Assembly (NCBI GenBank): GCA_902537425.1
Contig: CACBBD010000006.1
Coordinates: 1 to 64,000 of the forward strand
Direction: 5' to 3'
DNA length: 64,000 nt
Source: an uncultured SAR86 cluster bacterium
Lineage (GTDB): Bacteria > Pseudomonadota > Gammaproteobacteria > Magnimaribacterales > Magnimaribacteraceae
Numbering within the stretch: the stretch's first letter is position 1; each line of letters starts with the position of its first letter. The notes under the pieces are model-generated. The model was not told the DNA's origin and did not search any database. It worked only from the letters and a program-made list of their open reading frames with translations. The position numbers were made by a program, and so were the translations under genes. This document shows positions 27,022-59,167 of this stretch, in pieces.

Positions 27022-27072
27022 CGTCACACAAATGTCATATAAAAGACACATATGTGACATTTATGTGACATA
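27022..27072 (+). promoter_or_regulatory. Pho-box array, five half-sites in perfect 11-bp phase
   Basis: Half-sites begin at 27022 (CGTCACA), 27033 (TGTCATA), 27044 (AGACACA), 27055 (TGACATT) and 27066 (TGACATA), spaced exactly 11 bp apart. The first two read TGTCA-like and the last two are its reverse complement. PhoB binds 7-bp direct repeats spaced by 4 bp, so the register fits. The array ends only 12 bp before the start codon of the small secreted-protein gene, right against its RBS AAAAGGAG. Confidence 0.8.
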
Positions 27073-27084
27073 AAAGGAGTAAAC

Positions 27085-27540
27085 ATGAAATTAATCATCA
27101 AAATAATTAGTTTAAGTCTAATAATGATTTCTTCTTATACATATTCGGAGTCCAATCACGGATCTCTTTTCGCATTTGCAGAAAATATGCTAGAAATCGA
27201 AGGAACTGCTCCTAATATAATATTTTCAAGCAATGATGAGATAGGAGAATTATGCTCAAATGAAATGATTGCTTGCTTTAGGTCTGATAAACCTTCAAAC
27301 ATATATATTCAAGCAGGACTTCAAGTAGACTTAATTAATGCTACATTAGTTGGTCTTATGTCTGATTATTTACAATTTAATGCAAATAAAAATATAGATT
27401 ATTTAAAGAGTTGTAATGCTCAAGTAAACTATCTTTTAAGCTCATTTAAGGTAAATAAAGCCAAGATCTATAAAGCTACTGCTTGCGGAAGGAAAACTAT
27501 TTCACATAAAGAGATGGAAATTCTTTTAGCATCAAAATAA
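27085..27540 (+). CDS. small exported protein under Pho-box control, unknown
   Basis: I do not recognise a family. The 151-residue protein starts with a signal peptide (MKLIIKIISLSLIMISSYTYS, cleavage near 21). The mature part is about 130 residues with four Cys (in ELCSNEMIACF, LKSCNAQ and TACGRK), consistent with two disulfides in the periplasm. A helical stretch NATLVGLMSDYLQFN lies in the middle, loosely like the Rap1a/Tai fold, but I cannot confirm that. The strong Pho-box array just upstream and a clean terminator downstream make it a single-gene phosphate-starvation transcript. It may bind or handle a phosphorus compound, or be a stress protein. Confidence 0.7.
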   Translation: MKLIIKIISLSLIMISSYTYSESNHGSLFAFAENMLEIEGTAPNIIFSSNDEIGELCSNEMIACFRSDKPSNIYIQAGLQVDLINATLVGLMSDYLQFNANKNIDYLKSCNAQVNYLLSSFKVNKAKIYKATACGRKTISHKEMEILLASK

Positions 27541-27553
27541 ATTTCTTGGGGAG

Positions 27554-27585
27554 AAAAAAGAGGGACTTAGTCCCTCTTTTTTTTT
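27554..27585 (+). terminator. rho-independent terminator
   Basis: A GC-rich stem GAGGGAC / GTCCCTC with a 3-nt TTA loop is extended by A:T pairs and followed by an unbroken run of T. It lies 14 bp after the stop of the small secreted-protein gene and isolates it from plcP. Confidence 0.95.
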
Positions 27586-27601
27586 CAAATTAGAAACTTA
27601 A

Positions 27602-27688
27602 CTTTCACATGTTTGTAAACGTGTAAGTTTAAGATTTACACAATATATTGTTTTAAAAGTTCTTAAAACCACAATATGTTGTAGATTT
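27602..27688 (+). promoter_or_regulatory. leader region of plcP-agt, weak Pho-box-like and inverted-repeat elements
   Basis: Between the terminator and plcP, degenerate half-sites CTTTCAC (27602), TTGTAAA (27613) and TTTACAC (27635) fall in 11-bp register, with the 27624 register unmatched. Two related palindrome-like stretches (ACAATATATTGT near 27640 and ACAATATGTTGT near 27672) follow. The region must hold the plcP promoter because a terminator precedes it. PhoB control is plausible but weak on sequence alone. Confidence 0.35.
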
Positions 27689-28486
27689 ATGAAAATTTTA
27701 GATAAACAAGTTACTCATTATAAAACCATTTGGCTCAGCGATATACACCTAGGAACAAAAGGTTGCCAAGCTGAAAAACTATTAGATTTCCTGTACGAAT
27801 ATTCTTGCGATAAACTTTATTTGGTAGGGGACATAATTGATGGATGGAGATTAAGCCAAAATTTTTACTGGCCTCAATCTCACTCCAATATTGTAAGAAG
27901 ATTGCTTTCCTTTTCAAAACAAGGAACAGAGATCTTTTTTATTACTGGAAATCATGATGAATTTCTTAGATCCTTCTCTCCTCTAAATTTAGGAAACATA
28001 AAAATACTTGATGAAGATGTGCATAGTACTGAAGACGGTCGAGAAATCCTCATTATTCACGGTGATGAATATGATGTCGTAACAAAATATAGCAGATGGC
28101 TTGCGGTTTTAGGATCTATTGGTTACGAACTTCTCATGACTTTCAATCGCTTGTGGAATGCACTTAGAAAAATATTAGGCTATAAAAATTATTGGTCCCT
28201 CTCTGCCTTTGTTAAACACAAAGTCAAATCAGCGGTTAATTTTATAAGCGATTTTGAAGAGACACTTGCAATAGCTTGCAAGAAGAAAGGATACCAGGGG
28301 GTGATCGCAGGTCACATTCACCATGCAGAAATAAGAAAAATTCAAGGAATAGATTATATGAATTGTGGTGATTGGGTCGAGTCCTGCACAGCACTAGTTG
28401 AAAACGAGAATGGTATCATTGAAATAATTCAATATGGAGAATCAACAAATAAAAATATTCTTGATATAGCTAATAAGGTTGCATGA
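27689..28486 (+). CDS. plcP: PlcP-like phospholipase C (calcineurin-type metallophosphoesterase)
   Basis: All five metallophosphoesterase blocks are visible: SDIHLG (Asp18, His20), VGDIIDGW, TGNHDEF, IHGDEYD and AGHIHHAEI. The UDP-2,3-diacylglucosamine hydrolase subgroup includes PlcP, which in Sinorhizobium and many marine bacteria removes phosphate headgroups from phospholipids under P starvation. The partner gene supports PlcP over LpxH: a glycosyltransferase overlaps its stop by 4 bp (ATGA), as expected for the plcP-agt pair that turns diacylglycerol into glycolipid. It has 265 residues and no signal peptide, so it should act on the cytoplasmic face of the inner membrane. Its position next to phoBR supports phosphate regulation. 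Confidence 0.8.
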   Translation: MKILDKQVTHYKTIWLSDIHLGTKGCQAEKLLDFLYEYSCDKLYLVGDIIDGWRLSQNFYWPQSHSNIVRRLLSFSKQGTEIFFITGNHDEFLRSFSPLNLGNIKILDEDVHSTEDGREILIIHGDEYDVVTKYSRWLAVLGSIGYELLMTFNRLWNALRKILGYKNYWSLSAFVKHKVKSAVNFISDFEETLAIACKKKGYQGVIAGHIHHAEIRKIQGIDYMNCGDWVESCTALVENENGIIEIIQYGESTNKNILDIANKVA

Positions 28487-29484
28487 AGATTGTAATTGTT
28501 ACAGATGCATGGTTTCCACAAGTAAATGGCGTTGTAACAACACTAGATTGTCTTAAAAAGGAATTGGAAAAGAAAAGTTACCGAGTAGATATTATCCATC
28601 CAAGTCTATTTAAAACTTCTTCATTTTCTGTTTATCCTGAAATTTCATTAGCAATGAACCCTTGGAAAGTAAAAAACTACCTATCCGAAGATATGGACTA
28701 TTTACATATTGCAACAGAAGGTCCTTTAGGTTTATTTGCAAGAAATTTTGCAATTCAAAATAATATTCAATTTACTACGGCTATACATACCAAATTTCCT
28801 GAATACCTAAAGAAAATTCTTTTAATTCCATTGTCCTTAACTTATGGATATTTGAGATGGTTTCACGGAGAAGCACACAAAACACTAGCAAACACTAATT
28901 CTCAGATTGAAGAACTTTCTTCAATAGGATTTAAAAATTTAGCTAAGTGGAGTAGGGCGATTGATAGAAATATTTTTTATCCTAGAAAAAAGTCGTCTAA
29001 CAATGGTTATTTACTATATGTTGGTAGAATCTCGAAAGAAAAAAATCTTGAAGATTTTTTAAATCTAGAGACAAGTAATCAAAAAATCGTGGTTGGATCT
29101 GGCCCTATGCTAAATGAATATAAAAAGAAATATAGAACTGTAGAATTTGTTGGCCCTAAATTTGGAAACGAACTTGCGCAATATTATTCTGACGCCTCTG
29201 TTTTTGTTTTTCCATCCAAAACAGATACATATGGAATAGTTATGATTGAGGCATTGGCTTGTGGAACACCTGTAGCTGCCTATCCTGTAACAGGACCCAA
29301 GGATATCGTCATTAATGAGATTAATGGATACCTTCATCACGATCTGCTTACGGCTGTTTCATTTGCTGAGAATATAAATTCTAAATTTTGCGAAGAGTCA
29401 ATCGAATCCTTGTCCTGGGGCAAAGTAGCAAACACTTTTTTAAGCACTTTGATTCCGATAAGGCGTAAGTTTATAACTACTTAA
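28483..29484 (+). CDS. agt: GT4 glycosyltransferase, Agt/SqdX-like glycolipid synthase
   Basis: The 333-residue GT4 enzyme has TDAWFPQVNGVVTTLDCL at the N-terminus (glycine-rich acceptor loop), HTKFPEYL around 103-110, YVGRISKEKNLEDF near 180-193, and the donor-binding motif SKTDTYGIVMIEALACG with the E-x7-E pattern around 245-260. The closest named relatives by motif are SqdX and Agt, which add sugar from UDP- or similar donors to diacylglycerol. Placed directly after plcP, it most likely makes mono- or diglycosyl-diacylglycerol that replaces phospholipids. Which sugar is used (glucose, glucuronate or other) cannot be told from sequence. Confidence 0.82.
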   Translation: MKIVIVTDAWFPQVNGVVTTLDCLKKELEKKSYRVDIIHPSLFKTSSFSVYPEISLAMNPWKVKNYLSEDMDYLHIATEGPLGLFARNFAIQNNIQFTTAIHTKFPEYLKKILLIPLSLTYGYLRWFHGEAHKTLANTNSQIEELSSIGFKNLAKWSRAIDRNIFYPRKKSSNNGYLLYVGRISKEKNLEDFLNLETSNQKIVVGSGPMLNEYKKKYRTVEFVGPKFGNELAQYYSDASVFVFPSKTDTYGIVMIEALACGTPVAAYPVTGPKDIVINEINGYLHHDLLTAVSFAENINSKFCEESIESLSWGKVANTFLSTLIPIRRKFITT

Positions 29485-29534
29485 ATTTTTTCATTTCATG
29501 CAAAGGGAAAGATTCGTTAAAATAGACATTAATT

Positions 29535-29954
29535 ATGAATTCAAAGAAGGGGATAACTTTTGGTGCATTTGATTTATTTCATGCAGGTCACATTCTCATG
29601 CTTCAAGAAGCTAGAACCGTATGTGACTATTTGATTGTTTGTATACAAACCGATCCAAGCATTGACAGAAAATCTAAAAATGCTCCAGTTCAGTCAATAG
29701 TAGAAAGACAAATTCAGGTTACAGCTTGTAAATATGTAGATGAAGTTCTTATTTATGACACTGAATCAGATTTGCTAGAAATTCTAGACACTGTTGAATG
29801 GGATGTCAGAATCTTAGGTGATGAATACCAGGATAAAGACTTTACAGGTCGAGAAAAGTACCTTGAAAAATGCTATTTCAATAAGCGACCTCATACCTTT
29901 TCCAGTTCTGAATTGAGAAAAAGGGTAGCTGACAAGCAATCTAGTTCAGACTAA
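29535..29954 (+). CDS. TagD-like cytidylyltransferase (glycerol-3-phosphate type)
   Basis: The 139-residue nucleotidyltransferase has the HxGH motif as GAFDLFHAGHILMLQEA around 11-27 and a RTEGISTS-like C-terminal motif seen here as RPHTFSSSELRKR. The size and both motifs match glycerol-3-phosphate cytidylyltransferase TagD, which makes CDP-glycerol. It sits 50 bp after agt and 60 bp before phoB, so it may share the phosphate-stress transcript. How CDP-glycerol or a similar product would fit lipid remodelling is not known. Other small cytidylyltransferases are possible. Confidence 0.78.
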   Translation: MNSKKGITFGAFDLFHAGHILMLQEARTVCDYLIVCIQTDPSIDRKSKNAPVQSIVERQIQVTACKYVDEVLIYDTESDLLEILDTVEWDVRILGDEYQDKDFTGREKYLEKCYFNKRPHTFSSSELRKRVADKQSSSD

Positions 29955-30003
29955 GTCACAAAGCTTTCATTTATAATTAACAGACCTGACACTTTGTGAC
30001 ATT
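29954..30003 (+). promoter_or_regulatory. Pho-box-like elements upstream of phoB
   Basis: Forward half-sites AGTCACA (29954) and TTTCATT (29965) are 11 bp apart. A second, oppositely oriented pair TGACACT (29987) and TGACATT (29997) follows. The second pair read on the minus strand gives TGTCACAAAGTGTCA, matching the core found before the phytase-linked receptor and gspD. The ATG of phoB is 12 bp further on, which suggests phoB autoregulation. Confidence 0.65.
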
Positions 30004-30014
30004 ATAATAAGTCT

Positions 30015-30701
30015 ATGGCAAAACACATTTTAGTTGTAGAAGACGAACCTGATCTAAGAACAACCCTTGAATTTAATTTAAAATCTGAAGGATATAAAGT
30101 TAAATCTGCTGCGGATGGCGAAGCCGCAATTAAAGAATTTGGAAAAAAAGTACCTGATCTTGTGCTTCTTGATTTAATGCTACCTGATATGTCGGGACTT
30201 GAAATTTGTAAAAAAATTAGAAATGAGTCTTTTAGTGACCAAGTATCTATCATCATGTTGACTGCAAAGGGAGAAGAAGTAGATAGAGTTGTGGGATTTG
30301 AACTAGGTGCTGATGACTACGTAGTTAAACCTTTCAGTGTTAGAGAGCTTATGTTGCGAATTTCATCTATCCTAAAAAGAGGATCAGAGACAAATACTAA
30401 TAAAGAACAAATTTCTATTGGTGATGTTGAAATTAATTTAGCGTCACATAGGGTTTTTATAAGTGGTCTCGAAATTGAACTTACTGCAAAAGAATTTGAA
30501 TTACTTAAATATCTGGCGGAACGCAATGGAAGAATTCAAACAAGAGAAGTATTACTGGAACAAGTGTGGGATTATAACAATTCAGTAACTACCAGAACTG
30601 TGGATACTCATATCAAAAGACTTAGATCTAAAATCGGTGATGTGGGATCAAAAATAGAAACCGTCAGAGGTGTAGGTTACCGCTTTAATTACGTCGTATA
30701 A
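30015..30701 (+). CDS. phoB: phosphate regulon response regulator PhoB
   Basis: The 228-residue OmpR-type response regulator has a receiver domain with the acidic pair EDEP near residue 9, the phospho-acceptor Asp in VLLDLMLPDMSG (about 52), MLTAKGEE (switch Thr) and VVKPFSVREL (Lys near 104). A winged-helix domain follows with the recognition-helix region RTVDTHIKRLRSKIG. The partner phoR starts 8 bp after its stop. Phosphorylated PhoB would bind the Pho-box elements seen at 27.0, 30.0, 35.5 and 49.5 kb. The assignment rests on orthology to PhoB and on the neighbours. Confidence 0.93.
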   Translation: MAKHILVVEDEPDLRTTLEFNLKSEGYKVKSAADGEAAIKEFGKKVPDLVLLDLMLPDMSGLEICKKIRNESFSDQVSIIMLTAKGEEVDRVVGFELGADDYVVKPFSVRELMLRISSILKRGSETNTNKEQISIGDVEINLASHRVFISGLEIELTAKEFELLKYLAERNGRIQTREVLLEQVWDYNNSVTTRTVDTHIKRLRSKIGDVGSKIETVRGVGYRFNYVV

Positions 30702-30708
30702 TCTATGA

Positions 30709-32442
30709 ATGGATATTAGATGGAGGATCTTCTGGTCTACTTTTTTGCTTACATCGATGACTGTTCTCAGTCTAGGATATTTACTCTTAGAAAGAACAGG
30801 TGATTATTTATTAGAACAATTAGACTCGGAGCTAACTTCTGAAGCAAAAGGTGCGATTTTTATACTCTCTAATCCAGATTATAAAATTTCCAGTTACCAA
30901 ACACTTTCACGACAACTCTCAGATTCATATGGTTTTAGAGTTTCTCTCATCAAATCAAATGGTGAAGTGGTAGGCGATTCAGATGTCGAAGATGAAGACC
31001 TTAGGAAACTGGACAATCATTACAATAGACCTGAAATTCAGGCAGCTATTATTAATAATATTGGTAAAGCGACTCGTTACAGTAATACCTTAAAAACAGA
31101 TATGAGGTATCTTGCTTTAGCATCAAATAAAGCAGGAGACATAAACTTTGTTAGATTCGCCGTTCCTTTATCAGAAATAGATGCCACATTACTTGTCCTG
31201 CAAAATTCTATATACGGTTTTTTATTTGTATCCCTATTAATTGCTGTGCTTTTAAGTTATTTATTGTCTAGATTTCTAACGCTTGAGTATATTGAATTGA
31301 TATCAAGTGCTAGAAAATTAGCAAAAACAAGTGGCATGAAGGGGTCGAAAAGAGCTGCAGTAGAGCAAATAAGTTCTAATTTGATTGAAATCCAGGGAGC
31401 ACTTAAGAACGAGTTTACTGCTATTGCCAATGAAAGAAACCAGTTTGGAAATGCACTTGAAGAAATGGGACAGGGTGTAATTTCGATTAATAAAAATGGA
31501 ATAATAGAATTAACCAACCCAGCTGCCAGTAAACTGTTAGGTCTAGATAAGCTATCTATAGGAGATTCTTTTATGGAAAAGGTCTCAATATCTGGGTTAC
31601 AAGACCTAATAAAGGAAACTACTTCTTCAGAACCCGGATTAGATGAGATAGAAATACACCATCCCTTTTATAGAGCTTTTATTGCAAGTGCCAGTTTCAA
31701 TCCAGAAACGGAAGAGTCTTTACTCGTATTTTCAGATATTACTAGAATAAAAAAACTTGAATCTGCCAGAAGTGACTTTATAGGTAATGTCTCTCATGAA
31801 CTTAGAACACCCATTTCGGTACTTTTAGCTTCATCAGAGACTATTCTTAATACCGACATAAAAAAAGAAAAAGATCTAAAACAGTTTATTAAAGCTATAC
31901 ACCGAAATTCCGAAAGACTTAAAAATTTAGTTGATGATCTTCTGCACTTATCGCGTATAGAGGGTGGCAGTCTTAATATGACTATCGAGAAGATAAATCT
32001 TGATCACATAGTTGAATCAACTATATTAAATTTAGAACAAGAAGCACTAAAGAAAAGTATAAAAATTGAATCTCTGGTCGATAAAAGGATTGAAGTACTA
32101 TCGGACTTTATTTCCTTGGATATTATCATCTCTAACTATTTAAATAATGCACTTGCTTATTCTCCAAATAATTCAAAAATCTTAATTACTGCAGAAGAGG
32201 TAGATAAAAAGATAAAGTTATCTGTTAAGGATGAGGGAGAGGGAATACCTGAAAATTATAAAGATAGAGTTTTTGAAAGATTTTTTAGAGTTGATAAAGG
32301 GAGGTCTCTGAACCAGGGTGGTACTGGGCTTGGGTTATCCATAGTCAAAAATTTAGCTTCAACTCTTTCTTGTACAGTTGGGGTAGAAAATCTTGAGCCA
32401 AAAGGAGCAAGTTTTTGGATAGAGTTAAATAAATCAACTTAA
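30709..32442 (+). CDS. phoR: phosphate regulon sensor kinase PhoR with large periplasmic domain
   Basis: 577 residues: TM1 about 9-30, a roughly 130-residue periplasmic domain, TM2 about 163-187, a PAS-like segment (about 240-345), HisKA with His363 in NVSHELRTP, and HATPase_c with DEGEGIP and GGTGLGLSIVKN. E. coli PhoR (431 aa) has only a tiny periplasmic loop; this protein instead resembles the longer form of Gram-positive PhoR, with periplasmic residues such as GDSDVEDEDL and NRPEIQAA that suggest a sensor fold. No pstSCAB-phoU genes occur in the window, so how it senses phosphate is unclear. It converges with ppx by 9 bp. Confidence 0.9.
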   Translation: MDIRWRIFWSTFLLTSMTVLSLGYLLLERTGDYLLEQLDSELTSEAKGAIFILSNPDYKISSYQTLSRQLSDSYGFRVSLIKSNGEVVGDSDVEDEDLRKLDNHYNRPEIQAAIINNIGKATRYSNTLKTDMRYLALASNKAGDINFVRFAVPLSEIDATLLVLQNSIYGFLFVSLLIAVLLSYLLSRFLTLEYIELISSARKLAKTSGMKGSKRAAVEQISSNLIEIQGALKNEFTAIANERNQFGNALEEMGQGVISINKNGIIELTNPAASKLLGLDKLSIGDSFMEKVSISGLQDLIKETTSSEPGLDEIEIHHPFYRAFIASASFNPETEESLLVFSDITRIKKLESARSDFIGNVSHELRTPISVLLASSETILNTDIKKEKDLKQFIKAIHRNSERLKNLVDDLLHLSRIEGGSLNMTIEKINLDHIVESTILNLEQEALKKSIKIESLVDKRIEVLSDFISLDIIISNYLNNALAYSPNNSKILITAEEVDKKIKLSVKDEGEGIPENYKDRVFERFFRVDKGRSLNQGGTGLGLSIVKNLASTLSCTVGVENLEPKGASFWIELNKST

Positions 32443-33324
32443 ATTTTCGTTAAGATATTCAAAGGCCAAGGCATCACAAATTCCCCAATCTATAGCGAAA
32501 AGCTTATTTATATTTGAGTGCTCTAAAATATAAGAAAAAATATCTGAAGCGGGTACAATTACATCTGCTCTATCTTCCGCAAGACTATATTTATTTATTC
32601 GATCAACAATTGGCATTTTAGATAAATTTTTTCTGATTTCTTCAAATTCCTTAAGTTCTAAAGGACTATATTTTTGTATTTCAAGAATCTTAAAAATTCT
32701 CCTTATATTGCCACCGATACCCACTAAAGCGTCTGCATTATTTTCTTTAACTACATTCAAAAAGGCTTTTAACTTTTCCCATTCTTTTATGCTGTCTTTA
32801 CCCTTCATAATTCTCACAGCACCAAGATCAAATGATTCATAAAACTCTTCGGAACTATTGCGCATGTAAATTTCTGTACTGCCTCCTCCAACATCAACAT
32901 AGATAGGGCGATTCAGGTTTTCAATTTTTCTTGTATTGGCACCTTTAAGGTAATAGGCCTCTTGTTTACCGCTTAATATATTAACAGGTGTCTGACAGGC
33001 TTCTTCAATCTTGCTACATACTTCATTTCCATTTACCGCATTCCTAGTAGCCGATGTTGCGCATATTCCAGCCCACTCTATTTTCCTTTTTCGAACTTTA
33101 TTAGTAAGATTTTTAAGTTCTTGAATAAGTCTTTTTTCTGATTCTTCTGAGATCCTATTTGTTTCAAATACATCTTGTCCAAGCCTAAGATCAATTCTTT
33201 TAAAGGTATCTAACTCTAATGGGAAGAGATTCTTCGAGGTCCTAATCCTAAATTGCTTGAACTTAATTGCATTTGATCCAATATCAACGGCAGCAATTCG
33301 TTGGAAAATTTTCTTTGATTTCAA
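32434..33324 (-). CDS. ppx: exopolyphosphatase (Ppx/GppA family)
   Basis: The 296-residue ASKHA-fold protein has AAVDIGSNAIKFKQFRIRT (phosphate-1 motif), ATSATRNAVNGNEV, YVDVGGGSTEIYM (phosphate-2 motif near 144-156), and LVGIGGNIRRIF (adenosine-like motif). The short form fits single-catalytic-module Ppx/GppA proteins of about 300 aa. It hydrolyses polyphosphate or pppGpp; beside ppk2 the polyphosphate role is more likely. Its start overlaps the ppk2 stop by 4 bp, so the two genes form one transcript. Confidence 0.88.
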   Translation of the reverse strand: MKSKKIFQRIAAVDIGSNAIKFKQFRIRTSKNLFPLELDTFKRIDLRLGQDVFETNRISEESEKRLIQELKNLTNKVRKRKIEWAGICATSATRNAVNGNEVCSKIEEACQTPVNILSGKQEAYYLKGANTRKIENLNRPIYVDVGGGSTEIYMRNSSEEFYESFDLGAVRIMKGKDSIKEWEKLKAFLNVVKENNADALVGIGGNIRRIFKILEIQKYSPLELKEFEEIRKNLSKMPIVDRINKYSLAEDRADVIVPASDIFSYILEHSNINKLFAIDWGICDALAFEYLNENLS

Positions 33325-34160
33325 CTGGATTGATTTTGTATAAGTTTTTGTAACATTTTAAACTGCTGATATGTGAGCCCAGAAAACTCAACACCTTTAT
33401 ATTCTAGTTTGTGGTTATTTATGCCTGCATCCCATGTTTTGGGTTTGCTAAGTTTTTTTCCTTCGTAGTCAATCTCATTTAAGAGATACCTTAAGGCTGT
33501 TAAGCGAGCGACCATTTTATTATTTGCATTAATCACTATCCAAGGACTTTGCTCATAAGATGTGTTTGAGAACATTTGTTCTTTAAAAAAAGAAAAAATC
33601 TCCCATTTATCTGCCATTCTTAAATCATTAGTACTTAGTTTCCAGAGTTTCAAAGGGTCAGTTTGTCTTTCGTTGAACCGTTTGCTTTGTTGTCTTTTTT
33701 CAATGGACAAATAGAACTTGATCAAAATAAGGTTGTCTTCAATATATGATTTTTCCCATCTTATGACTTTGTTCATAAAATGAGTGTATTGCCTTTTAGA
33801 GCAATAACCCATAGTTATCTCGACCGTGGCTCTTGTGTACCAAGATCTATCAAAAAAAACTATTTCGCCTTTTTTAGGCATATGTTTTTCATAACGTTTA
33901 AACCATTTTTTTGATTCATTTTCAGTTGGTATTCCTAAATGCACATACCTAAAATGATCAGGAATCAGATGTTTGGCTAATAGATTGATTGTGTCAGTTT
34001 TCCCAGCGGCGTCCCTACCTTCAAAAACAACGGCTATTTTTTTCCCTTCTTTAATTGCCCAATTTTGAAGCTTAAGAAACTCAATTTGTAGACTTCTTTT
34101 TTCTTTTCTATAAAGGTCGGGATTGAGTCTGTTGTATTCGGAAACGTCGTAGTTGATCAT
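33321..34160 (-). CDS. ppk2: polyphosphate kinase 2
   Basis: The 279-residue PPK2 domain has Walker A GRDAAGKT at residues 48-55, Walker B EIVFFDRSWYTRATVE near 110-125, and lid residues KRFNERQTDPLKLWKLS around 175-191. One-domain PPK2 enzymes use polyphosphate to phosphorylate nucleoside diphosphates (class I) or monophosphates; the length fits class I. With ppx it forms a polyphosphate-mobilising pair next to phoBR and pit. It diverges from pit across 111 bp. Confidence 0.92.
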   Translation of the reverse strand: MINYDVSEYNRLNPDLYRKEKRSLQIEFLKLQNWAIKEGKKIAVVFEGRDAAGKTDTINLLAKHLIPDHFRYVHLGIPTENESKKWFKRYEKHMPKKGEIVFFDRSWYTRATVEITMGYCSKRQYTHFMNKVIRWEKSYIEDNLILIKFYLSIEKRQQSKRFNERQTDPLKLWKLSTNDLRMADKWEIFSFFKEQMFSNTSYEQSPWIVINANNKMVARLTALRYLLNEIDYEGKKLSKPKTWDAGINNHKLEYKGVEFSGLTYQQFKMLQKLIQNQSS

Positions 34161-34271
34161 AATAAAATTGTGTGAATATTAAAGTAGGGTATGTAATAAA
34201 TAAAGGTGATAAGTTATATTTCACATAATATAATTTGACACTAATAAATTTCTGGAGTGTGATGCCATAAA

Positions 34272-35541: not shown

Positions 35542-35582
35542 CAAGATTTCAGAAAATATATATTACTATTATGGAGTAGTTT

Positions 35583-49405: not shown

Positions 49406-49460
49406 GAATACCCTTTTTTATTTTCCAGCTATTTACTCCTGATATAGTAAAAACACAAAT

Positions 49461-49500: not shown

Positions 49501-49531
49501 TAGTTCATCTCAGAATGTCGTTTATTCAAAA

Positions 49532-51373: not shown

Positions 51374-52863
51374 TGGAACAGATAATAACAAAAGAGCATA
51401 AACCATTATTTCCTTACGAATATTCTAAATCTCAAAGAATTTTAGGAGTTGAAATTAATGGTGAAATATTTATTTTTTCTGAAAATGCACTGAGCTCATT
51501 GTCCATACAGGAATTATACTCAACATATCCAACAAAGAAATTTATCACCACATTATGCAGTCCTAATGAATTTGAAAAGGGATTAACTAAACTTTATTCT
51601 CAAGATAAGTTTCAAGAAACAATAGGAGATGAGCTATCGGAATCATTTGATCTTGAATCCTATGCAAAGACCATAACTCCTTCGGAGGATCTATTGCAGG
51701 GCAACAATGATGCTCCTATTATCAAGCTGATTAATGGCATTCTAAGTCAAGCTATTAAAGCTAAAGCATCAGATATTCACTTTGAACCTTTTGAGGATAC
51801 TTTTATTGTAAGACTACGAATAGATGGAGTAATGCGAGAACTCATTTCACAAGATTCAAGACTATCACCTCCAATTGTTTCAAGATTAAAGATAATGTCC
51901 AAGTTAGACATCGCAGAAAGAAGAAAACCTCAAGATGGAAGGGTGTCGCTCTCACTTGGAGCTCAATCCATTGATGTAAGAGTATCAACTTTACCGTCCT
52001 CATATGGTGAAAGAGTAGTTCTTAGGTTACTTGATAAAGATTCTGCAGAGATAGATCTAAATTATCTTGGATTTTCTGACTACGTTAACTCTAAATATCA
52101 AAAGGCACTGAAATCTAATGAAGGAATTATTCTTGTTACTGGTCCTACTGGATCTGGAAAAACTACAACTCTATATGCAGGCTTACGAGAGATTAATGAT
52201 AATTCGCAAAACATTTTAACTGTAGAAGATCCCATTGAATACACACTCGCAGGAATTGGGCAAACCCAAGTGAATTCAAAGGCAGGCTACACTTTTGCAA
52301 GTGGACTAAGATCAATTCTTCGACAAGATCCCGACATTGTAATGGTTGGTGAAATACGAGATTCTGAAACTGCCAGTATTGCCATTCAAGCTAGCTTAAC
52401 CGGGCATTTAGTGTTATCCACAATCCATACCAACAGCGCAATAGGAGCTATAGCCAGACTAAGAGATATGGGGGTTGAGTCCTACTTATTAGCTTCTAGT
52501 ATTAAGATAGTGTTAGCACAAAGACTTGTTAGAAGGCTTTGTAATCACTGTAAAAAACCTTCTAGTGAAAATGTAAATTTATTAAAGAAATTTAATTTAT
52601 GTTCTGAAAGCATATATTACGAACCAAGCGGATGTCAGCACTGTTCATTTACAGGCTACTCTGGAAGACTTGCGATTGCTGAGTTAGTCGAGATAGATGA
52701 AAATCTCAAGCAAATGATCCATGACGAAGCATCAGAAAAAGTGATGAATGATTATGCTTTCCAAAATAATCAATCCATTCAAGAATCAATTAAATTAAAT
52801 CTAGAAAACGGAATAACTAGCATTAGTGAAATAGTGAGATTGCAAAACATATCAGATGCCTAA
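51373..52863 (+). CDS. gspE: type II secretion ATPase GspE
   Basis: The 496-residue cytoplasmic ATPase has Walker A VTGPTGSGKTTT near 256-267, the Asp box TVEDPIEY, Walker B IVMVGEIRDSETA, and the His box LSTIHTNSA. The zinc-binding tetracysteine motif CNHCKK ... CQHCSFTGYSGR near 390-425 marks the T2SS/T4P ATPase family. The start overlaps the gspD stop by one base. It powers assembly of the pseudopilus. Confidence 0.96.
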   Translation: MEQIITKEHKPLFPYEYSKSQRILGVEINGEIFIFSENALSSLSIQELYSTYPTKKFITTLCSPNEFEKGLTKLYSQDKFQETIGDELSESFDLESYAKTITPSEDLLQGNNDAPIIKLINGILSQAIKAKASDIHFEPFEDTFIVRLRIDGVMRELISQDSRLSPPIVSRLKIMSKLDIAERRKPQDGRVSLSLGAQSIDVRVSTLPSSYGERVVLRLLDKDSAEIDLNYLGFSDYVNSKYQKALKSNEGIILVTGPTGSGKTTTLYAGLREINDNSQNILTVEDPIEYTLAGIGQTQVNSKAGYTFASGLRSILRQDPDIVMVGEIRDSETASIAIQASLTGHLVLSTIHTNSAIGAIARLRDMGVESYLLASSIKIVLAQRLVRRLCNHCKKPSSENVNLLKKFNLCSESIYYEPSGCQHCSFTGYSGRLAIAELVEIDENLKQMIHDEASEKVMNDYAFQNNQSIQESIKLNLENGITSISEIVRLQNISDA

Positions 52864-54046
52864 CTTTCAATATATTGCTCAAAATGAAGAAGGTAAATCC
52901 TTAAAGGGAATTTTGCTCTCTGATAGCGAGAGATCTGCTAGGCAAGAAATAAAATCAAAAAACTTACTTCTTCTTAGTATCAAAGAAACGTCAAAACAAA
53001 CTAAAGGTAAAAAAATAGCACGTAGAGACATAGCTGTTGCAACCAGACAAATATCTTCATTAATAAGCTCAGGTATACCGCTTGACAAGGCCTTGCAGTC
53101 AATTGGAAAAAACTCTAACTCAAAAGTTGGCGATTTATTTAATGACATAGGTAACGAGCTACAACAAGGTAGGCAGCTACATTTAATTTTGTCTGATTAC
53201 CCTGGCAGCTTCGATCAGACTTATATTTCGCTTGTATCTGCTGGAGAAATTTCAGGTAACTTGATTGAAGCCTATAAAAATCTATCTGAATATTTAGAAG
53301 ATGAAATTTCAATAAAACAAAAAATTTTTTCGGCTCTTGCTTACCCGGTACTTGTCATTAGTTTTTCTATATTAGTAGTAATTGCTCTTCTAATCTTTGT
53401 TTTACCCCAAGTAACAGAACAGTTTGTTAAGTCAAACATTGAACTCCCTTTTTTAACTTCTTTGATGATTTTTATCTCAAATAATATTTTGGTATTTATT
53501 GGGATAAATCTTCTAACAATCACAGCGTTTTACGTTCATTACAAGAAAAATATTTTGGGAACTTCTAGTGAATCAAATATCCATAGAATATTATTAAAAA
53601 TCCCTTTTGTTGGAAGGTTTCTGTTAACTAGGGACTTAGAAAAGTTCAGTCGAATTATGTTTTTAATGCTTAAATCAGGTATCAACCTTGATCAATCTTT
53701 AAATCATGCAAATAAATTAATTGGTAATAGATATATAAGAAAAATCGTTGAAGATGCTACAGAAGATATTATCGAAGGCAAAGATTTTCTATATGAAATT
53801 AAGCAATCAAAAATTTTTCCGGAAATATTTATACAATTACTTTCAAGTGGTTTCCAATCTGGATCATTATCAGAAATGTTTGAAAAGTTAGCATTTTATT
53901 TTAAAGACGAAATAGATAACTCTAGATCATCATTACTATCCATTATTGAGCCATTAATATTAATAGTCATGGGCGGTATAATTACATTGATAATTCTGGC
54001 AATCCTCTTACCAATCATGCAAATGAATAACTCTATTTTATCCTAA
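52856..54046 (+). CDS. gspF: type II secretion inner-membrane platform GspF
   Basis: 396 residues with two GspF domains. The first contains ATRQISSLISSGIPLDKAL near 60-78 and the second LEKFSRIMFLMLKSGINLDQ near 261-280. Three membrane helices are visible, the last near the C-terminus (LILIVMGGIITLIILAILLP). It overlaps gspE by 8 bp. GspF forms the platform on which GspE acts. Confidence 0.95.
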   Translation: MPNFQYIAQNEEGKSLKGILLSDSERSARQEIKSKNLLLLSIKETSKQTKGKKIARRDIAVATRQISSLISSGIPLDKALQSIGKNSNSKVGDLFNDIGNELQQGRQLHLILSDYPGSFDQTYISLVSAGEISGNLIEAYKNLSEYLEDEISIKQKIFSALAYPVLVISFSILVVIALLIFVLPQVTEQFVKSNIELPFLTSLMIFISNNILVFIGINLLTITAFYVHYKKNILGTSSESNIHRILLKIPFVGRFLLTRDLEKFSRIMFLMLKSGINLDQSLNHANKLIGNRYIRKIVEDATEDIIEGKDFLYEIKQSKIFPEIFIQLLSSGFQSGSLSEMFEKLAFYFKDEIDNSRSSLLSIIEPLILIVMGGIITLIILAILLPIMQMNNSILS

Positions 54047-54474
54047 TGAAAAAAGGCTTTACTTTAATTGAACTCTTAGCAGTAATTGTCATCCTGGGTA
54101 TTCTTGCAACCGTTGTAGCTATAAATGTATCTCCGATTCTTCAAAGAGCAAACTTTGAAAAAATTAGAGCTGATATTTCTCAAATAGAGAAAGGTCTCGA
54201 GTTGTACAAATTTAATGAACTTAGATACCCGTCCACTGATCAGGGTCTCGTTTCTTTAAAACAACCTCCTAAAGACCTTAATCGACCTTTTTTATACCCT
54301 GCAGAAGGATATATAAGTGATATTCCCAAAGACCCTTGGGGGAATGATTATTTATATATGTCTCCCGGCATCAATAAAATTTATTATGATATTTACACTC
54401 TAGGTGCTGATGGACTTGAAGGTGGCGTGGGTGAAGATGCTGACATTGGCAACTGGAATGTCAACTCGAAATAA
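54046..54474 (+). CDS. gspG: major pseudopilin GspG
   Basis: 142 residues with the prepilin leader MKKG cut before FTLIELLAVIVILGI, Glu5 of the mature chain, and the C-terminal GspG pattern including SPGINKIYYDIYTLGADG and a Gly/Asp-rich end near 125-135 that corresponds to the calcium-binding region. It builds the pseudopilus shaft. The start overlaps the gspF stop by one base. Confidence 0.95.
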   Translation: MKKGFTLIELLAVIVILGILATVVAINVSPILQRANFEKIRADISQIEKGLELYKFNELRYPSTDQGLVSLKQPPKDLNRPFLYPAEGYISDIPKDPWGNDYLYMSPGINKIYYDIYTLGADGLEGGVGEDADIGNWNVNSK

Positions 54475-54913
54475 CGGTTTTACATTGATGGAGCTTCTGT
54501 TAGTTCTGCTAATAATAGGAATTATTTCTCTGATCCCTATTATCAATTCATCTTTCTTGAGCTCATACCAAGAAGGAGGAGTAACTCAAATCAACCAGCT
54601 CTTAAATTCTTTAAAGAAAGAAAGTCAGCTTATAAGAAAGCCTATAGCAATTGAAAAAAATAATGAGAATTACTATTTAGTGTCCTATGAAGACAACTCA
54701 TGGAAAAATTATGATATTTTAGATTTTGATTTAAATCTGATCTTAAAAAATTATATTTTCAATGATCTAAACAATGAGTTTTTAGAAAATAGAGATAGGT
54801 CATTTTTAATCATTTTTTATCCTAACGGAAGAAACTCTGGTCTTGAGTTTAGAGTTTTAGATCAAAATCAAAAAATTTATTACGATATATTTGGTGAATT
54901 AAATGAGACTTGA
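54458..54913 (+). CDS. gspH: minor pseudopilin GspH
   Basis: The open frame begins at 54404, but ATG 54458 gives the proper prepilin leader MSTRNNG before FTLMELLLVLLIIGI, so 151 residues are expected. Glu5 is present in the mature chain. The body is short and diverged, as usual for GspH. It overlaps gspG by 17 bp and gspI by 11 bp. Confidence 0.85.
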   Translation: MSTRNNGFTLMELLLVLLIIGIISLIPIINSSFLSSYQEGGVTQINQLLNSLKKESQLIRKPIAIEKNNENYYLVSYEDNSWKNYDILDFDLNLILKNYIFNDLNNEFLENRDRSFLIIFYPNGRNSGLEFRVLDQNQKIYYDIFGELNET

Positions 54914-55256
54914 TAAAGGCTTTAGTCTTTTAGAGGTAGGTGTATCAATTTTAATCTTAAGTATTGCGCTGCTTACCATCTTTCAATCAATTTCATTTAA
55001 TAACTCCAATCTTGATTCAATTAAAAAAAAGGCTTTTGCAAGACAAATAATTATCAATCGAATTTCTTCGTATGAATTTATAGATCCAATACGAATTAAT
55101 TCATCTCGATCTTTTGATTATGTATTTGGTCCTTACAATTTTTTAGTTTTTGAAGAAATGAGTGTCACTGGAATAAATAAAAAGCAATTCTCTATTCGTG
55201 TCAGTCTTGATGATGAGGTAATCACCGAATATATAACTCTTGCTGGAAATGAATAA
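54903..55256 (+). CDS. gspI: minor pseudopilin GspI
   Basis: 117 residues with leader MRLDKG then FSLLEVGVSILILSIALLTI, including Glu5. The size and order match GspI, which with GspJ and GspK forms the pseudopilus tip. It overlaps both neighbours. Confidence 0.88.
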   Translation: MRLDKGFSLLEVGVSILILSIALLTIFQSISFNNSNLDSIKKKAFARQIIINRISSYEFIDPIRINSSRSFDYVFGPYNFLVFEEMSVTGINKKQFSIRVSLDDEVITEYITLAGNE

Positions 55257-55848
55257 ACTTCAAAAAGGATTTACTTTAATTGAACTGGTAATTTCAATAA
55301 CGCTGTTATCTTTTATAACCATCATAACAACTTCTATTTTACAAAATTCAATCATCCAGAGAAATCTCTACATAGAAAATTCAAACAATTTGGAAAACTA
55401 TAATAGTTTTTTTGGAATTTTTAGGGATGATTTTAGATTTATCCAAAACGTCGACATGTTAAATGCTGATGGTGCAAGTTCATTCAAAACACTTCTTTTG
55501 AATGATGATGAGAAACAACTTAGCTTCATTACTAAAAGTTTTTCAAACACTGATCTTGAGTTAAAAAATATAAGAGTCTTGTATTTTATTGAAAATGGGC
55601 AACTCTATCGTAGGCAATATAAAAGCATAAATCCTGCAGATTTTAGTGATTATCTTGATACGTTAATCCTTGAGGAGGTTACTGATATTCAACTTAAAGC
55701 ACATAATAAGCAGCGCTGGCTAAATATATGGCCTTACGACGAAGTTTCTAAAAGAAGATTGCCACACGCAGTTTCTTTAAGCATTTCTCAGCGTCAAAAG
55801 GATGTCTTTGAAATAATCTTAGCAACTGATAATGATAATGTTTTTTAG
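55249..55848 (+). CDS. gspJ: minor pseudopilin GspJ
   Basis: Start set at ATG 55249 (the upstream TTG at 55240 is less likely). Leader MNKLQKG precedes FTLIELVISITLLSFI with Glu5. About 199 residues with a conserved-looking body (YFIENGQLYRRQY, LILEEVTDIQLKA). Part of the tip complex. Confidence 0.9.
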   Translation: MNKLQKGFTLIELVISITLLSFITIITTSILQNSIIQRNLYIENSNNLENYNSFFGIFRDDFRFIQNVDMLNADGASSFKTLLLNDDEKQLSFITKSFSNTDLELKNIRVLYFIENGQLYRRQYKSINPADFSDYLDTLILEEVTDIQLKAHNKQRWLNIWPYDEVSKRRLPHAVSLSISQRQKDVFEIILATDNDNVF

Positions 55849-56791
55849 AAAAAGAAAAGGATTTGTTCTCGTATCTACAATGCTTATTGTTTTGATGCTT
55901 TCTATAATTGCTTCTGAAATGAGTAAAGCTTTCTTTTTAGATTTACGAAAGGAAGGATATCTCTCATTTGATGCAATTGCTTTTAGCAAAAGAATAGAAT
56001 CTGAAAAGTTTTTATTAAATTTTATTAAGCGCGAATTAAATAAAAATCCAAACGTTAATAAACAAAATCCAATTTTCAATGAGAGTCTAGTTTTCCAATT
56101 TGATGATTTCTCACTTGAGGGCTCACTATCTGACCATTCAAATTGCTTCAATATTAATCATTTAATTACATTCAAGGGAGGGCAATCAAAAGATAACTTA
56201 AAAGCTATAAAATATTTTGAAGATTTGCTTTCACAATATGAGGTCAGTTATATAGATGCTGACCAAATTATAGACCAAATTCTTGATTGGATGGATGATG
56301 ATGATATTCCTAGGAACAACGGGGCAGAAAACTATTATTATTCAAGCCCATTGCACTATCCCAGAGAATATACCTCTAAAAGGTTATTTATTAATAAGTC
56401 TGAATTGCTGGCTATACCAAGTATCAATAAGATAAAAAATACAGCTATATGGCGAGACCTTTGCATCATCCCCATGAGTTCTATTTTCTATATCAATATC
56501 AATAGCCTACAAGACGAGGATAAACATTTACTTTCTAGCGCAATTAGTCAACCTAATTTGAATGAAATAGCTTTGATAATTAAAGAAACACCTTCTGAAG
56601 GCTTTTCTACCATTGAAGAATTCTTACAGAAATTTAATTTACAAGAAACAGATTTGATAATTCCTCTTGATACTTCTTCAGATATGTTTCTCTTTAATGG
56701 CACATTAAAATACCAAGGTTTTTCGTATAATTTTAAAACTCTTATTAAACAAGAAAACGAATTTAATTATAGAATTCTTGATAGGTTATAA
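55832..56791 (+). CDS. gspK: minor pseudopilin GspK
   Basis: 319 residues with leader MIMFFRKRKG before FVLVSTMLIVLMLSIIASEM; the mature chain lacks Glu5, as is normal for GspK, the tip pseudopilin. The large globular domain includes DQILDWMDDDDIPRNNGAEN, the SAM-like acidic region typical of GspK. Overlaps gspJ by 17 bp. Confidence 0.9.
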   Translation: MIMFFRKRKGFVLVSTMLIVLMLSIIASEMSKAFFLDLRKEGYLSFDAIAFSKRIESEKFLLNFIKRELNKNPNVNKQNPIFNESLVFQFDDFSLEGSLSDHSNCFNINHLITFKGGQSKDNLKAIKYFEDLLSQYEVSYIDADQIIDQILDWMDDDDIPRNNGAENYYYSSPLHYPREYTSKRLFINKSELLAIPSINKIKNTAIWRDLCIIPMSSIFYININSLQDEDKHLLSSAISQPNLNEIALIIKETPSEGFSTIEEFLQKFNLQETDLIIPLDTSSDMFLFNGTLKYQGFSYNFKTLIKQENEFNYRILDRL

Positions 56792-57946
56792 ATGAAAACA
56801 AGATATATATTTACTGACTCCAGTCTTGAGACCATTTATAACTCCTTTGTAGTGGAAAGTGATGAAATACATGAAACAATGATTTCTGATCTTCAAGAGA
56901 TAAACGAAGACAAGTCCATAAGAAAGAATATTATTTTTTTTAATTCAGAGTTTCTAAACTCATGTTCACTGAATGAATATAATAAATCTGACAATGATAA
57001 ATTATTAAAAGCAAAGTTTTTTTCTTCTCATGTTGATCAATTACTTCTTAATCCATCTGAACTAAGTTTTTTTTCTTCATCCATTGATAACATTGGAATT
57101 TGGGGAGAATCTTGTTACCTAGATGAGCTTAAAAACAAAACTTTAAACTTACGAAAAAGTTTTTTTATACCCGATTACTTACTATTCTTTGAACAAAAAA
57201 ATGTTGTAGCAAATCTAGGATCTCATTATTCCTTAAGGCTTGAAGATGGAAGGGGATACAGCGGCCGTCAACAAAAGATTAATGCACTCTTAGAATCAAA
57301 TATTCAAATTTTAAATGATTTAGATGTCTTGGATGTATCGCCTAAGGAATTGGAGTGCCTGCAAAATTTAGAGCATTCGTTAAATAAGTTTGATTTAAGT
57401 TCCCAAGTTTATAACTTTCATACAAATCATTCATCACAGTTAAATATTCTTAAAACCCCTTTCAATTTCAATGGGTTATTATATCTAGATGTAATTAGTG
57501 TGGGTGAATTCCGAAATTTTGCCATCCCTCTTTTAACTACTTTTTTGTTATCCATCTCAATAAACATCACAATCGAATCTCAAAATAAATTAGTTTCCAA
57601 AGAAACCAAACAGCTCTTTTCAAACCTAGGAAATCAATCGGTAAGATTAATCAATCCAAAGGCACAAATAGATCAACTAGTTAGCGAATTACAAATAACA
57701 GACAACAAAAGTAAATTTGATTTTGAAATTTTAGATTTTCTAAATAACTATCAATTAGATGAACTAGAAAGTATTGAAGTAAATCTTGATGAGCAATTTA
57801 CTACTCTATACCTAGATGGGCTTAGCTCAGAAAAATTGATAATCCTAATAAATCTTCTTAATTCTTCTGGCCTGTCTACCGAAGAAAATTTTGCTGAGGC
57901 TCAAAATAAGTTAAAAGGTTCAATTAAGGTTTTTTTATATGAATAG
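56792..57946 (+). CDS. gspL: type II secretion protein GspL (diverged)
   Basis: 384 residues. A cytoplasmic actin-like region of about 235 residues is followed by one membrane helix (NFAIPLLTTFLLSISINITI) and a periplasmic ferredoxin-like tail (QLDELESIEVNLDEQFTTLYL). The order between gspK and gspM and this layout make GspL likely, although the sequence is poorly conserved. GspL links GspE to the pseudopilus in the inner membrane. Confidence 0.8.
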   Translation: MKTRYIFTDSSLETIYNSFVVESDEIHETMISDLQEINEDKSIRKNIIFFNSEFLNSCSLNEYNKSDNDKLLKAKFFSSHVDQLLLNPSELSFFSSSIDNIGIWGESCYLDELKNKTLNLRKSFFIPDYLLFFEQKNVVANLGSHYSLRLEDGRGYSGRQQKINALLESNIQILNDLDVLDVSPKELECLQNLEHSLNKFDLSSQVYNFHTNHSSQLNILKTPFNFNGLLYLDVISVGEFRNFAIPLLTTFLLSISINITIESQNKLVSKETKQLFSNLGNQSVRLINPKAQIDQLVSELQITDNKSKFDFEILDFLNNYQLDELESIEVNLDEQFTTLYLDGLSSEKLIILINLLNSSGLSTEENFAEAQNKLKGSIKVFLYE

Positions 57947-58412
57947 TTACATTAATGATATTTTGAAGTTTATAAGGAATAAAGATAAATATCATCAGAT
58001 AGCTATGATTTTATCTTTACTAATTTTAGTTATCCTTTTGCTATTTCAACTATCTAAAATTCAAGACAATAGAAAGCTTCTAATAAATGCAAAAAGCGAC
58101 CACGCTTATGTAGAAGAAAAATTCAACCTTATTGCAAATAAGATTAGTCTTAATCAGCTTATCAATAATTCAGAGAGTATAAATTCTTTGTTGAATAACA
58201 TAGCAAAGAAGTACGATTTGTTAAATTTTCAAATCCACGATGAGAATATGCAAAATGTAATAAAGTTTGATATTGATGATCTGCAAAAGCTTGAAAACCT
58301 AATTAATATTTTTTCCAACGAAAGTTTTATTCAAGTCAAAAATATTTATATCAAACCCGATAGTAAGGATTATCAAATTAAAATTATTTATGTGTATGGT
58401 GATACACAGTAA
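57939..58412 (+). CDS. gspM: type II secretion protein GspM
   Basis: 157 residues with a single N-terminal membrane helix (MILSLLILVILLLFQL) and a small periplasmic domain. Sequence identity to known GspM is not obvious, but position after gspL and topology fit. It overlaps gspL by 8 bp. No gspN gene is seen before the peptidase, as in many T2SS. Confidence 0.75.
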   Translation: MNSYINDILKFIRNKDKYHQIAMILSLLILVILLLFQLSKIQDNRKLLINAKSDHAYVEEKFNLIANKISLNQLINNSESINSLLNNIAKKYDLLNFQIHDENMQNVIKFDIDDLQKLENLINIFSNESFIQVKNIYIKPDSKDYQIKIIYVYGDTQ

Positions 58413-58429
58413 CTTGGTTGAAAGTATAA

Positions 58430-59167
58430 TTGAGTATTACTGAGTTAATTTTTTGCATTTCCATTGGAATGTGCCTTGGAAGCTTCGCCTCTGTTCTGAT
58501 CTACAGAATTCCTAGAAATATAAATTTACTAGTACCTGGATCCCATTGTCCCTGTTGCAATAATAAGCTCAGAGCTATACATTTAGTACCGATCTTTAGC
58601 TATGCCTTCTTAAGAGGAAATTGTGCTTTTTGTAGTTCAAAAATTAGTAGACTCTATCCTGTAAATGAAATTTTTATTACAGCAATGGTCGCAATAACTA
58701 CATATTATGCTGGACCATATTCTATAAATGGATGGTTAACAATTGCATTAATTTTGTGTCTATACGTTCAAGCAGTAATTGACTTTAAAATATTATCTTT
58801 ATCAACTCATCTAAGCGCAATTATTGGTTTATTAGGATTTGCCCTTAATTATTTACACTTCTTCACATCAATTATTGATAGTTTGTCTGGATTGATTTTA
58901 GGCTATTGTAGCTTGTGGTTAATAAATTATATTTATAAAAAAATTAAAGGTATTGATGGAATCGGTTCGGGTGATTATTTTTTACTTGGAGCAGTGGGAG
59001 GTGTTTTCGGTTCAAGTTCTTTAGGAATTATCTTATTATCAAGTTCAATCATTTCTATAGGATTACATTTCTTTACCAGAACAATTCACGGTGAGAGGAT
59101 ACCTCTTGGTACAGGTATTGCTTTATCAAGCATTATTTTCTTAGTTCTAATAATTTTGAACAAATAA
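58430..59167 (+). CDS. pilD: prepilin peptidase (GspO/PilD)
   Basis: 245 residues, an A24 aspartic peptidase. The zinc-type cysteine motif HCPCCNNKL ... NCAFCSSKI is near 41-67, the first catalytic Asp is in AVIDFKILS, and the GxGD motif is in GSGDYFLLG near 178. Start is TTG 58430; no ATG gives a full N-terminus. It cleaves and methylates pseudopilins GspG-K. It ends the operon. Confidence 0.93.
   Translation: MSITELIFCISIGMCLGSFASVLIYRIPRNINLLVPGSHCPCCNNKLRAIHLVPIFSYAFLRGNCAFCSSKISRLYPVNEIFITAMVAITTYYAGPYSINGWLTIALILCLYVQAVIDFKILSLSTHLSAIIGLLGFALNYLHFFTSIIDSLSGLILGYCSLWLINYIYKKIKGIDGIGSGDYFLLGAVGGVFGSSSLGIILLSSSIISIGLHFFTRTIHGERIPLGTGIALSSIIFLVLIILNK

Follow-up and report, generated by a model that had tools for sequence, protein, structure and literature searches.

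What gathers genes for phosphate regulation, polyphosphate storage, organic-phosphate uptake, membrane lipid replacement and type II secretion into one stretch of a SAR86 genome? The locus in question lies in a 64,000-nucleotide window of contig CACBBD010000006.1 (contig 6) of an uncultured bacterium of the SAR86 cluster, an abundant marine group in the order Magnimaribacterales (assembly G000; 1.34 Mb, 74% complete, 33 contigs). An earlier note, made from the letters of this window, had read positions 27022-59167 as a single phosphate-starvation island tied together by shared Pho boxes. We compared the locus with 80 relatives drawn from the genus, family and order, which with G000 make 81 genomes; being kin, they are non-independent. 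We consider it likely, on good grounds, that the locus is a flexible genomic island serving to acquire phosphorus, of which the window carries a large 'organic-P' allele seated at one place in family f1 (probably the Magnimaribacteraceae) and exchanged as a block. Its members, from the small secreted protein s151 through phoB-phoR, ppx-ppk2, pit, a first TonB receptor with a phytase, SRAP, a second receptor (tbdr2), an aquaporin, the lipoprotein Elp and a third receptor (tbdr3) to the gsp genes, are placed in Table 1.

First, the block has sharp borders. Against G009, of the same genus, nucleotide identity is 93.5% up to position 26393 and 93.4% from 59776, with only scattered pieces of 66-76% between them. 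Measured in 1-kb steps against G034, a genome assigned to another genus, identity rises from 67-77% at 20-26 kb to 88-97% at 26-59.4 kb, the stretch at 40-42.5 kb being missing in G034, and drops to 66-76% from 60 kb onward. The breaks against G015 lie at 26347 and 59427. The breaks against relatives thus fall at about 26.4 and 59.4-59.8 kb, which agrees with the single coherent unit claimed earlier, and the roughly 33 kb between them appears to act as one exchangeable block. The high identity inside and low identity outside relative to G034 suggest that the block passed between genera, in the simplest case as one unit, a mobility that went beyond what the earlier note expected. G015 runs from the SRAP gene (window position 39922) straight to the right flank (59427) and, on this alignment, is an empty site for the 19.5-kb segment comprising tbdr2, the aquaporin, elp, tbdr3 and the gsp genes.

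Second, the locus in f1 combines the same position among relatives and an equivalent function with variable content. Ten f1 genomes (G003, G004, G009, G011, G016, G018, G021, G025, G026 and G031), counted where the allele was at the same place or on the fetched part of the locus, carry a small allele of 7-9 kb with PhoU_div, pit and SRAP. PhoR is of a soluble form in eight of these ten; G026 is not among them, and the G003 contig ends before phoR. A porin-like open reading frame, looked for in some small-allele genomes only, is found in G009, G011, G025 and G026, and the G016 copy is Porin_4 by Pfam. The G012 locus additionally carries pstSCAB, and G019, G020, G022 and G024 have a different type II system, with GspD 42-44% identical. 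The locus maps of G006, G013, G015 and G017 are partial on account of split contigs. Neither phoB nor phoR was seen at the locus in G019, G024 and G026, the rest of these genomes lying outside the search; PhoU_div and pit are present at these loci (L066, L075 and L103). The SRAP (SOS-associated) gene sits at the locus in both f1 alleles.

Third, the parts travel together across the order. We counted two genes as linked when at most 25 kb apart, in genomes with both on one contig, leaving out the Elp-like matches (34-42% identical) of G042, G045, G051 and family f4 and the contig-edge matches of G006 and G074. By this measure ppk2 and gspD are linked in 38 of 39 genomes (40 have both), with six cases in f1, ten in f2, twelve in f3 and ten in f4, and G056 as the exception; ppk2 and the phytase are linked in 33/33 (36 have both), and gspD and elp in 16/16. 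The synteny that the earlier note proposed to seek in relatives is thus borne out for these modules, whereas its placing of plcP-agt as a fixed part does not hold: ppk2 and plcP are linked in only nine of 16 same-contig genomes (26 have both; five in f1, four in f3), and lipid replacement is an optional island member.

The ancestry of the parts is mixed. Trees, from which tblastn matches shorter than half the query or under score limits were omitted, keep each family together for phoB and ppk2 (f1 support 87 and 92, not starred). In the GspD tree the window type nests with f2, nearest to G056, and a single f1 clade is rejected (p-AU 0.0005). At the level of these sequence trees, the core phoB and ppk2 follow the family tree, while for the elp-TonB receptor-gsp segment GspD falls with a sister family; for Pit, a single f1 clade was not rejected. 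The direction of transfer is inferred.

Fourth, three of the modules share an operator. The motif TKTCACAAAGTGWCAG has three matches in the window against 0.14 expected (0/100 shuffles reach three), and they precede phoB, receptor 1 and gspD. Its looser 15-bp form, TKTCACNNNGTGWCA, has exactly three distinct sites in the G000 assembly and three in the one-contig relative G005 (1,591,815 bp), all at these same promoters. Over the genomes it yields 43 strand matches at 30 distinct sites, compared to eight strand matches in six genomes for the control; of the 20 distinct sites in f1, 18 belong to the promoters of phoB, receptor 1 or gspD and two are in G016 and G017, and the ten sites outside f1 are spread over ten genomes. 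The receptor 1 and gspD promoters are identical at 35/46 bases, the null maximum being 25 in 147 random comparisons. The gap between gspC and gspD measures 124-126 bp in four f1 genomes against -8 to +25 bp in nine genomes of f2, the nearest sister family. The element in this gap matches those of phoB and the receptor-phytase pair, and it would presumably be bound by PhoB. The simplest reading is that it was added in the f1 lineage; it could instead have been lost in f2.

Direct-repeat Pho boxes, scored to a maximum of 16 with a motif modelled on E. coli PhoB boxes, have their own distribution. Strong boxes occur at 27022-27071 and moderate ones ahead of 35583; a perfect TGTCAYN5TGTCAY is present just once in the G000 assembly, at 27054, and once in G005, in both before s151. 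In eight large-type genomes (G000, G005, G006, G008, G013, G015, G017 and G034), 13 of 14 lie just before s151. Five f3 genomes (G039, G054, G057, G066 and G072) have such boxes just before ppk2, and G044 and G065 have them between phoR and gspC, some 650-720 bp before gspD and just ahead of gspC. The 81 genomes hold 64 perfect boxes against eight for a reversed-pattern control: 27 have an island anchor within 25 kb, 26 lie beyond that range and 11 are in genomes lacking an anchor. When orthologue promoters were pooled, s151 reached the threshold in 13/14 (background 4.8%) and receptor 1 in 13/21 (9.2%). The ppk2 promoters were slightly above background (5/30 vs 4.0%); the signal was weak for elp (3/15), tetR (4/15), phoB (4/28), gspO (4/16) and plcP (1/10), little for srap, and at background for pit, phytase, tbdr2 and mip. 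The four gspD promoters out of 24 that qualified have the same 13.0-scoring site, at threshold, in G000, G005, G013 and G034. An unrelated gene of the flank, o18, gave a high score as well (8/12), presumably from near-copies of a single chance site. One Pho box type joining all modules was rejected, the strong pooled signal being limited to s151 and receptor 1. Of the shared boxes asserted in the earlier note, then, what stands is an operator common to phoB, the receptor-phytase pair and gspD; in the window pit, ppk2 and plcP have no good site and the lipoprotein has a weak box. A genome scan for the perfect direct repeat finds it once in G000, before s151, and not at the other modules.

The signalling genes at the locus point to a departure from the canonical scheme, again beyond the earlier expectation. 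Textbook Pho signalling requires Pst and PhoU (PMC9239213). PhoB and PhoR are present, whereas PhoU (PF01895) was found in 0/81 genomes, and in 0/37 at ≥90% completeness, with controls detected in 13/14; PstC exceeded the cut-off in four of the 81, G005 not being among them, and in G012, G039, G057 and G072 it adjoins island genes. PhoR itself, among 37, is long in 20, short in eight and soluble in nine. In relatives, two membrane segments of the long form flank about 140 residues; in the window PhoR the hydropathy cut detected the second segment only. A single clade of long forms is rejected (p-AU 1.3e-5), and with it a one-time change between forms; the tree suggests repeated loss of the sensor. 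PhoU_div is encoded in 9/9 soluble-PhoR genomes and 0/28 others; since the soluble forms are one clade, this association counts as one event and not nine. The extracytoplasmic domain gave B. subtilis PhoR (3cwf) as its fourth match (E 0.43, not significant). With PhoU undetected and PstC uncommon, this domain of PhoR would itself sense phosphate or a proxy. Tentatively, and as a possibility in which we place less than even trust, SAR86 might run a Pho regulon without PhoU and mostly without Pst. Here the island would swap sensor along with effectors: an extracytoplasmic-sensor PhoR in the organic-P allele, and in the inorganic-P allele a membrane-free PhoR, perhaps signalled by a Pit-PhoU_div pair. 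Captured secretion genes would have been wired in by the phoB/phytase operator before gspD.

The secretion segment keeps the order of the ElpS-receptor-type II module, namely lipoprotein, TonB receptor and gsp genes, and secretin, ATPase, GspF, pseudopilins and prepilin peptidase are all present, as type II secretion demands. The two halves of Elp are 57% identical over 432 columns. Elp was found in 50/397 other Pseudomonadota genomes sampled, and the idea that its two-domain form is a SAR86 peculiarity was rejected, frames of 905-981 aa being common outside. Among 20 fetched outside loci, a receptor stands beside Elp in 19, gspD is in the stretch in nine, and phoB-phoR adjoin in one. Neither Elp nor receptor 3 had a match in the PDB. 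Acinetobacter needs GspN for lipoprotein transport (PMC12802150), and no gspN was found between gspM and gspO in the window operon; on this analogy, Elp may reach the surface by a route other than GspN. Separately, the f3 genome G036 has a GspN-like gene (PF01203, just under the cut-off), and f4 genomes have Elp-like repeats away from the island, in open frames of up to about 1,880 aa (e.g., G040:C1:958783-961743).

Putting these features together, the following working is proposed. The block, with its sharp identity breaks, would be swapped most simply by homologous recombination in its conserved flanks. PhoR would sense low phosphate by means of its own extracytoplasmic domain, upon which PhoB, judging by the sites, would raise its own expression and that of s151, receptor 1 with the phytase, and the type II system. 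From their families, receptor 1 and the phytase are predicted to liberate phosphate bound in organic esters, Elp with receptor 3 to work alongside secreted hydrolases at the cell surface, Pit to import phosphate, PPK2 and Ppx to buffer it as polyphosphate and, where present, PlcP-Agt to spare membrane phosphorus. If the locus works in this way, a single exchangeable block decides whether a cell depends on inorganic phosphate or can draw on organic phosphorus too, and metagenomes could reveal phosphorus niches from this locus alone. The locus is also a clear example of a secretion system that resembles a sister lineage's and stands under the operator of the local phosphate genes, and it offers a natural setting in which to ask how PhoR perceives phosphate in the absence of PhoU. 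A SAR86 isolate, HIMB1674, exists.

Several points weigh against this reading. The joint phosphate response and PhoB control of the island genes are read from sequence, and elp, pit and ppk2 have no strong site in the window. The operator is an inverted repeat, TGTCAC-N3-GTGACA, unlike the classical direct repeat, and its ligand may be other than PhoB. It is also lacking at the strongest direct-repeat promoter (27054), as would be expected if another regulator bound the three promoters, with phoB, receptor-phytase and gsp forming a second regulon and PhoB controlling s151 only. We hold such a division of labor to be unlikely, while giving it some weight; against it, the operator consists of TGTCAC half-sites like those of the direct repeats, is set among repeats phased by 11 bp at receptor 1 and gspD, and precedes phoB itself in large- and small-allele genomes.

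Other contrary points concern secretion. The type II substrates, predicted secreted hydrolases, are deduced from families. In C. crescentus the type II genes are expressed in both rich and poor media, and ElpS crosses the outer membrane without this system (PMC2996285). Such constitutive expression would fit an elp-receptor-type II module serving general polymer or carbon use and neighboring the phosphate genes by chance, as would the description of SAR86 as a degrader of algal organic matter with suggested lipid use (PMC8371827). In 16/20 outside Elp loci no phosphate query (window proteins and a few relatives) matched within the 20-kb stretch, and among these 20 loci the convincing phosphate neighbors are only L146 (phoBR) and L155 (pst). 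We nonetheless find this account distinctly improbable: gspD lies within 25 kb of ppk2 in four families, its control element resembles those of phoB and the phytase, the perfect Pho boxes of G044 and G065 are just ahead of gspC, and the type II system belongs to the Caulobacter PhoB regulon (PMC11208175).

The remaining points against the island reading concern its reach. Exchange between genera is seen in one case, G034, and ppk2-plcP linkage in none of the f2 and f4 cases, plcP-agt being unlinked there. Pst is reported in the isolate HIMB1674 (PMC11582366), and pst transcripts, plus phoBRU in a pooled list, have been assigned partly to SAR86 (PMC12981677). Gene content differs between strains, as it would among ordinary neighbors without joint function, but linkage over four families, block exchange and a genome-unique operator make this very improbable. 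An assembly or binning artefact of an incomplete, fragmented metagenome-assembled genome was rejected as next to impossible, since the same block, both flanks included, recurs at 98.1% over 62 kb in the single contig of G005, and in G034 on a contig of 85 kb.

This kind of island is already known, and the SAR86 variant is new as far as the literature was searched; the 'unusual' of the earlier note therefore applies to the variant, the HIMB59 island (PMC10734472) and the Caulobacter regulon (PMC11208175) being published. The flexible phosphate genomic island (fGIp) of the HIMB59 alphaproteobacteria is likewise order-wide and at one genome position in several versions, some of them with phoBR, polyphosphate kinase, exopolyphosphatase and phosphatases, and the versions are tied to phosphorus concentration. 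All of them have pstSCAB and phoU, in contrast to the absence of detected PhoU and rarity of PstC in SAR86, and the main text never mentions phytase or TonB, whereas the SAR86 island has type II secretion, TonB receptors, Elp and a beta-propeller phytase (PMC10734472). In C. crescentus, elpS-cc0171-gspC..N has lipoprotein, TonB receptor and type II genes ordered as in SAR86, and elpS is produced under phosphate starvation; ElpS is about 50 kDa and gspN is present, while SAR86 Elp is two-domain and gspN was not found (PMC2996285). The Caulobacter PhoB regulon includes type II secretion, TonB receptors and a phytase (PMC11208175). No regulator genes are described beside that secretion system (PMC2996285, PMC11208175), whereas the SAR86 block includes phoBR, polyphosphate genes, Pit and phytase; the operator between gspC and gspD is a further difference. 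At the PstS region of SAR11 and Prochlorococcus, phosphate genes also vary within a subtype at a fixed place, but there the variation concerns Pst and its neighbors (PMC1821060). For SAR86, four families are described in the order, with pit as core and Pst confined to the isolate and part of one family; 'secretion' and 'phytase' are absent from that main text (PMC11582366). Searches on SAR86 with type II secretion, phosphate/TonB, genomic islands and PhoR/PhoU returned no report of the island, most subscription papers and the 2012 SAR86 genome paper being beyond the search; one paper mentions type II secretion for Methylophagaceae only.

Table 1. Features of the window, with the basis of each assignment
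Feature	Position	Strand	Basis
Conserved left flank genes	21878..26393		91-95% nucleotide identity to G009, 1-kb steps over 20-26 kb
Exchangeable island (cassette) between fixed flanks	26394..59775		blastn breaks vs G009, G015, G034
Facing pairs of direct-repeat PhoB-type boxes	27022..27071		scores 16, 15, 14.5 of 16
s151, small secreted 4-Cys protein	27085..27540	+	Pfam, NCBIfam: no match
PlcP-like metallophosphoesterase, optional member	27689..28486	+	PF00149
Agt-like GT4 glycosyltransferase, optional member	28483..29484	+	PF00534, PF13439
Cytidylyltransferase-like protein	29535..29954	+	PF01467
Shared operator upstream of phoB	29986..30001	-	motif match
PhoB	30015..30701	+	TIGR02154, 254 bits, under its 296.2 cut-off
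PhoR, long form with extracytoplasmic domain	30709..32442	+	HisKA, HATPase_c
Exopolyphosphatase Ppx (Ppx/GppA)	32434..33324	-	PF02541
PPK2	33321..34160	-	PF03976; TIGR03707 284 bits, cut-off 301.8
Pit phosphate transporter (PHO4/Pit)	34272..35501	+	PF01384, E 7e-112
Operator 35514-35529 within 11-bp-phased repeats, before receptor/phytase	35503..35552	+	motif match
TonB receptor 1	35583..38117	+	TIGR01782, 513.7 bits, above cut-off
Beta-propeller phytase, signal peptide read by eye	38187..39224	+	PF02333, E 9.3e-66
SRAP protein	39291..39875	+	PF02586
TonB receptor 2 (tbdr2)	40022..42535	+	TIGR01782; absent from G006, G013, G034
Aquaporin-family channel	42597..43262	+	PF00230
Elp, 955-aa two-domain lipoprotein	43469..46336	+	no Pfam match; ElpS kind read from gene order
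TonB receptor 3 (tbdr3), partner of Elp	46362..48965	+	Plug domain
Short GspC	49013..49405	+	no Pfam match; position and likeness to f2 genes
126-bp gspC-gspD gap with operator 49473-49488	49406..49531	+	gap comparison
gspD,E,F,G,H,I,J,K,L,M and prepilin peptidase gspO	49532..59167	+	Pfam, position
Right flank: TetR(-), MFS, aminotransferase (61188), gene at 62512	59428..63372		same order in small-allele genomes

Gene identities come from Pfam and NCBIfam profile searches of the window proteins, which confirmed the gene list of the earlier note and added the genes at 27085, 29535, 39291, 40022 and 42597; Rfam and tRNA scans of the window gave no matches. Both PhoB and PhoR have Pho-family models among their best matches, yet score under the NCBIfam equivalog cut-offs; for PhoR, NF053855 aligned over positions 5-583 of 583, below cut-off. 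GspD, E, F, G, J, K and the prepilin peptidase are recognized by Pfam/NCBIfam, the type II components matching PF00263, PF00437, PF00482, PF08334, PF11612, PF21687 and PF06750. GspH and GspI are called from the prepilin motif (that of I just under cut-off) and position, GspL (56792) from position and likeness to same-place genes of other families, and GspM from position alone. The phytase start is likely the ATG at 38187 and not 38133, because G005, G008 and G017 have a stop just upstream. The cytidylyltransferase-like gene adjoins phoB in most fetched f1 loci, though not in G025 and G026.

The metallophosphoesterase-glycosyltransferase pair is what we take to be the PlcP-Agt lipid remodelling pair, its activity being predicted here. 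PlcP is distinct from housekeeping LpxH: a second LpxH-like match, 23-34% identical, lies elsewhere in G005 and other relatives, and was not seen in G000, which is incomplete. In G008 a UDP-glucose dehydrogenase gene (L032:11601-12944) sits between agt and the cytidylyltransferase gene, with a similar open reading frame in G039 and none in the window; a glucuronosyl lipid is a possible product of such a lipid module. In the f3 genome G036, the aquaporin gene is followed by one for an LMWPc-fold, ArsC-like protein (L058:18805-19224), with a similar frame in G039, a neighborhood that suggests release of arsenite as a by-product of phosphate scavenging. Finally, s151 is a candidate new Pho protein family: homologs with boxes occur in f1, f2 and f3. 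Those in f2 and f3 are 24-36% identical, and some stand outside the island, such as the one on contig 2 of G035, which has a perfect box.

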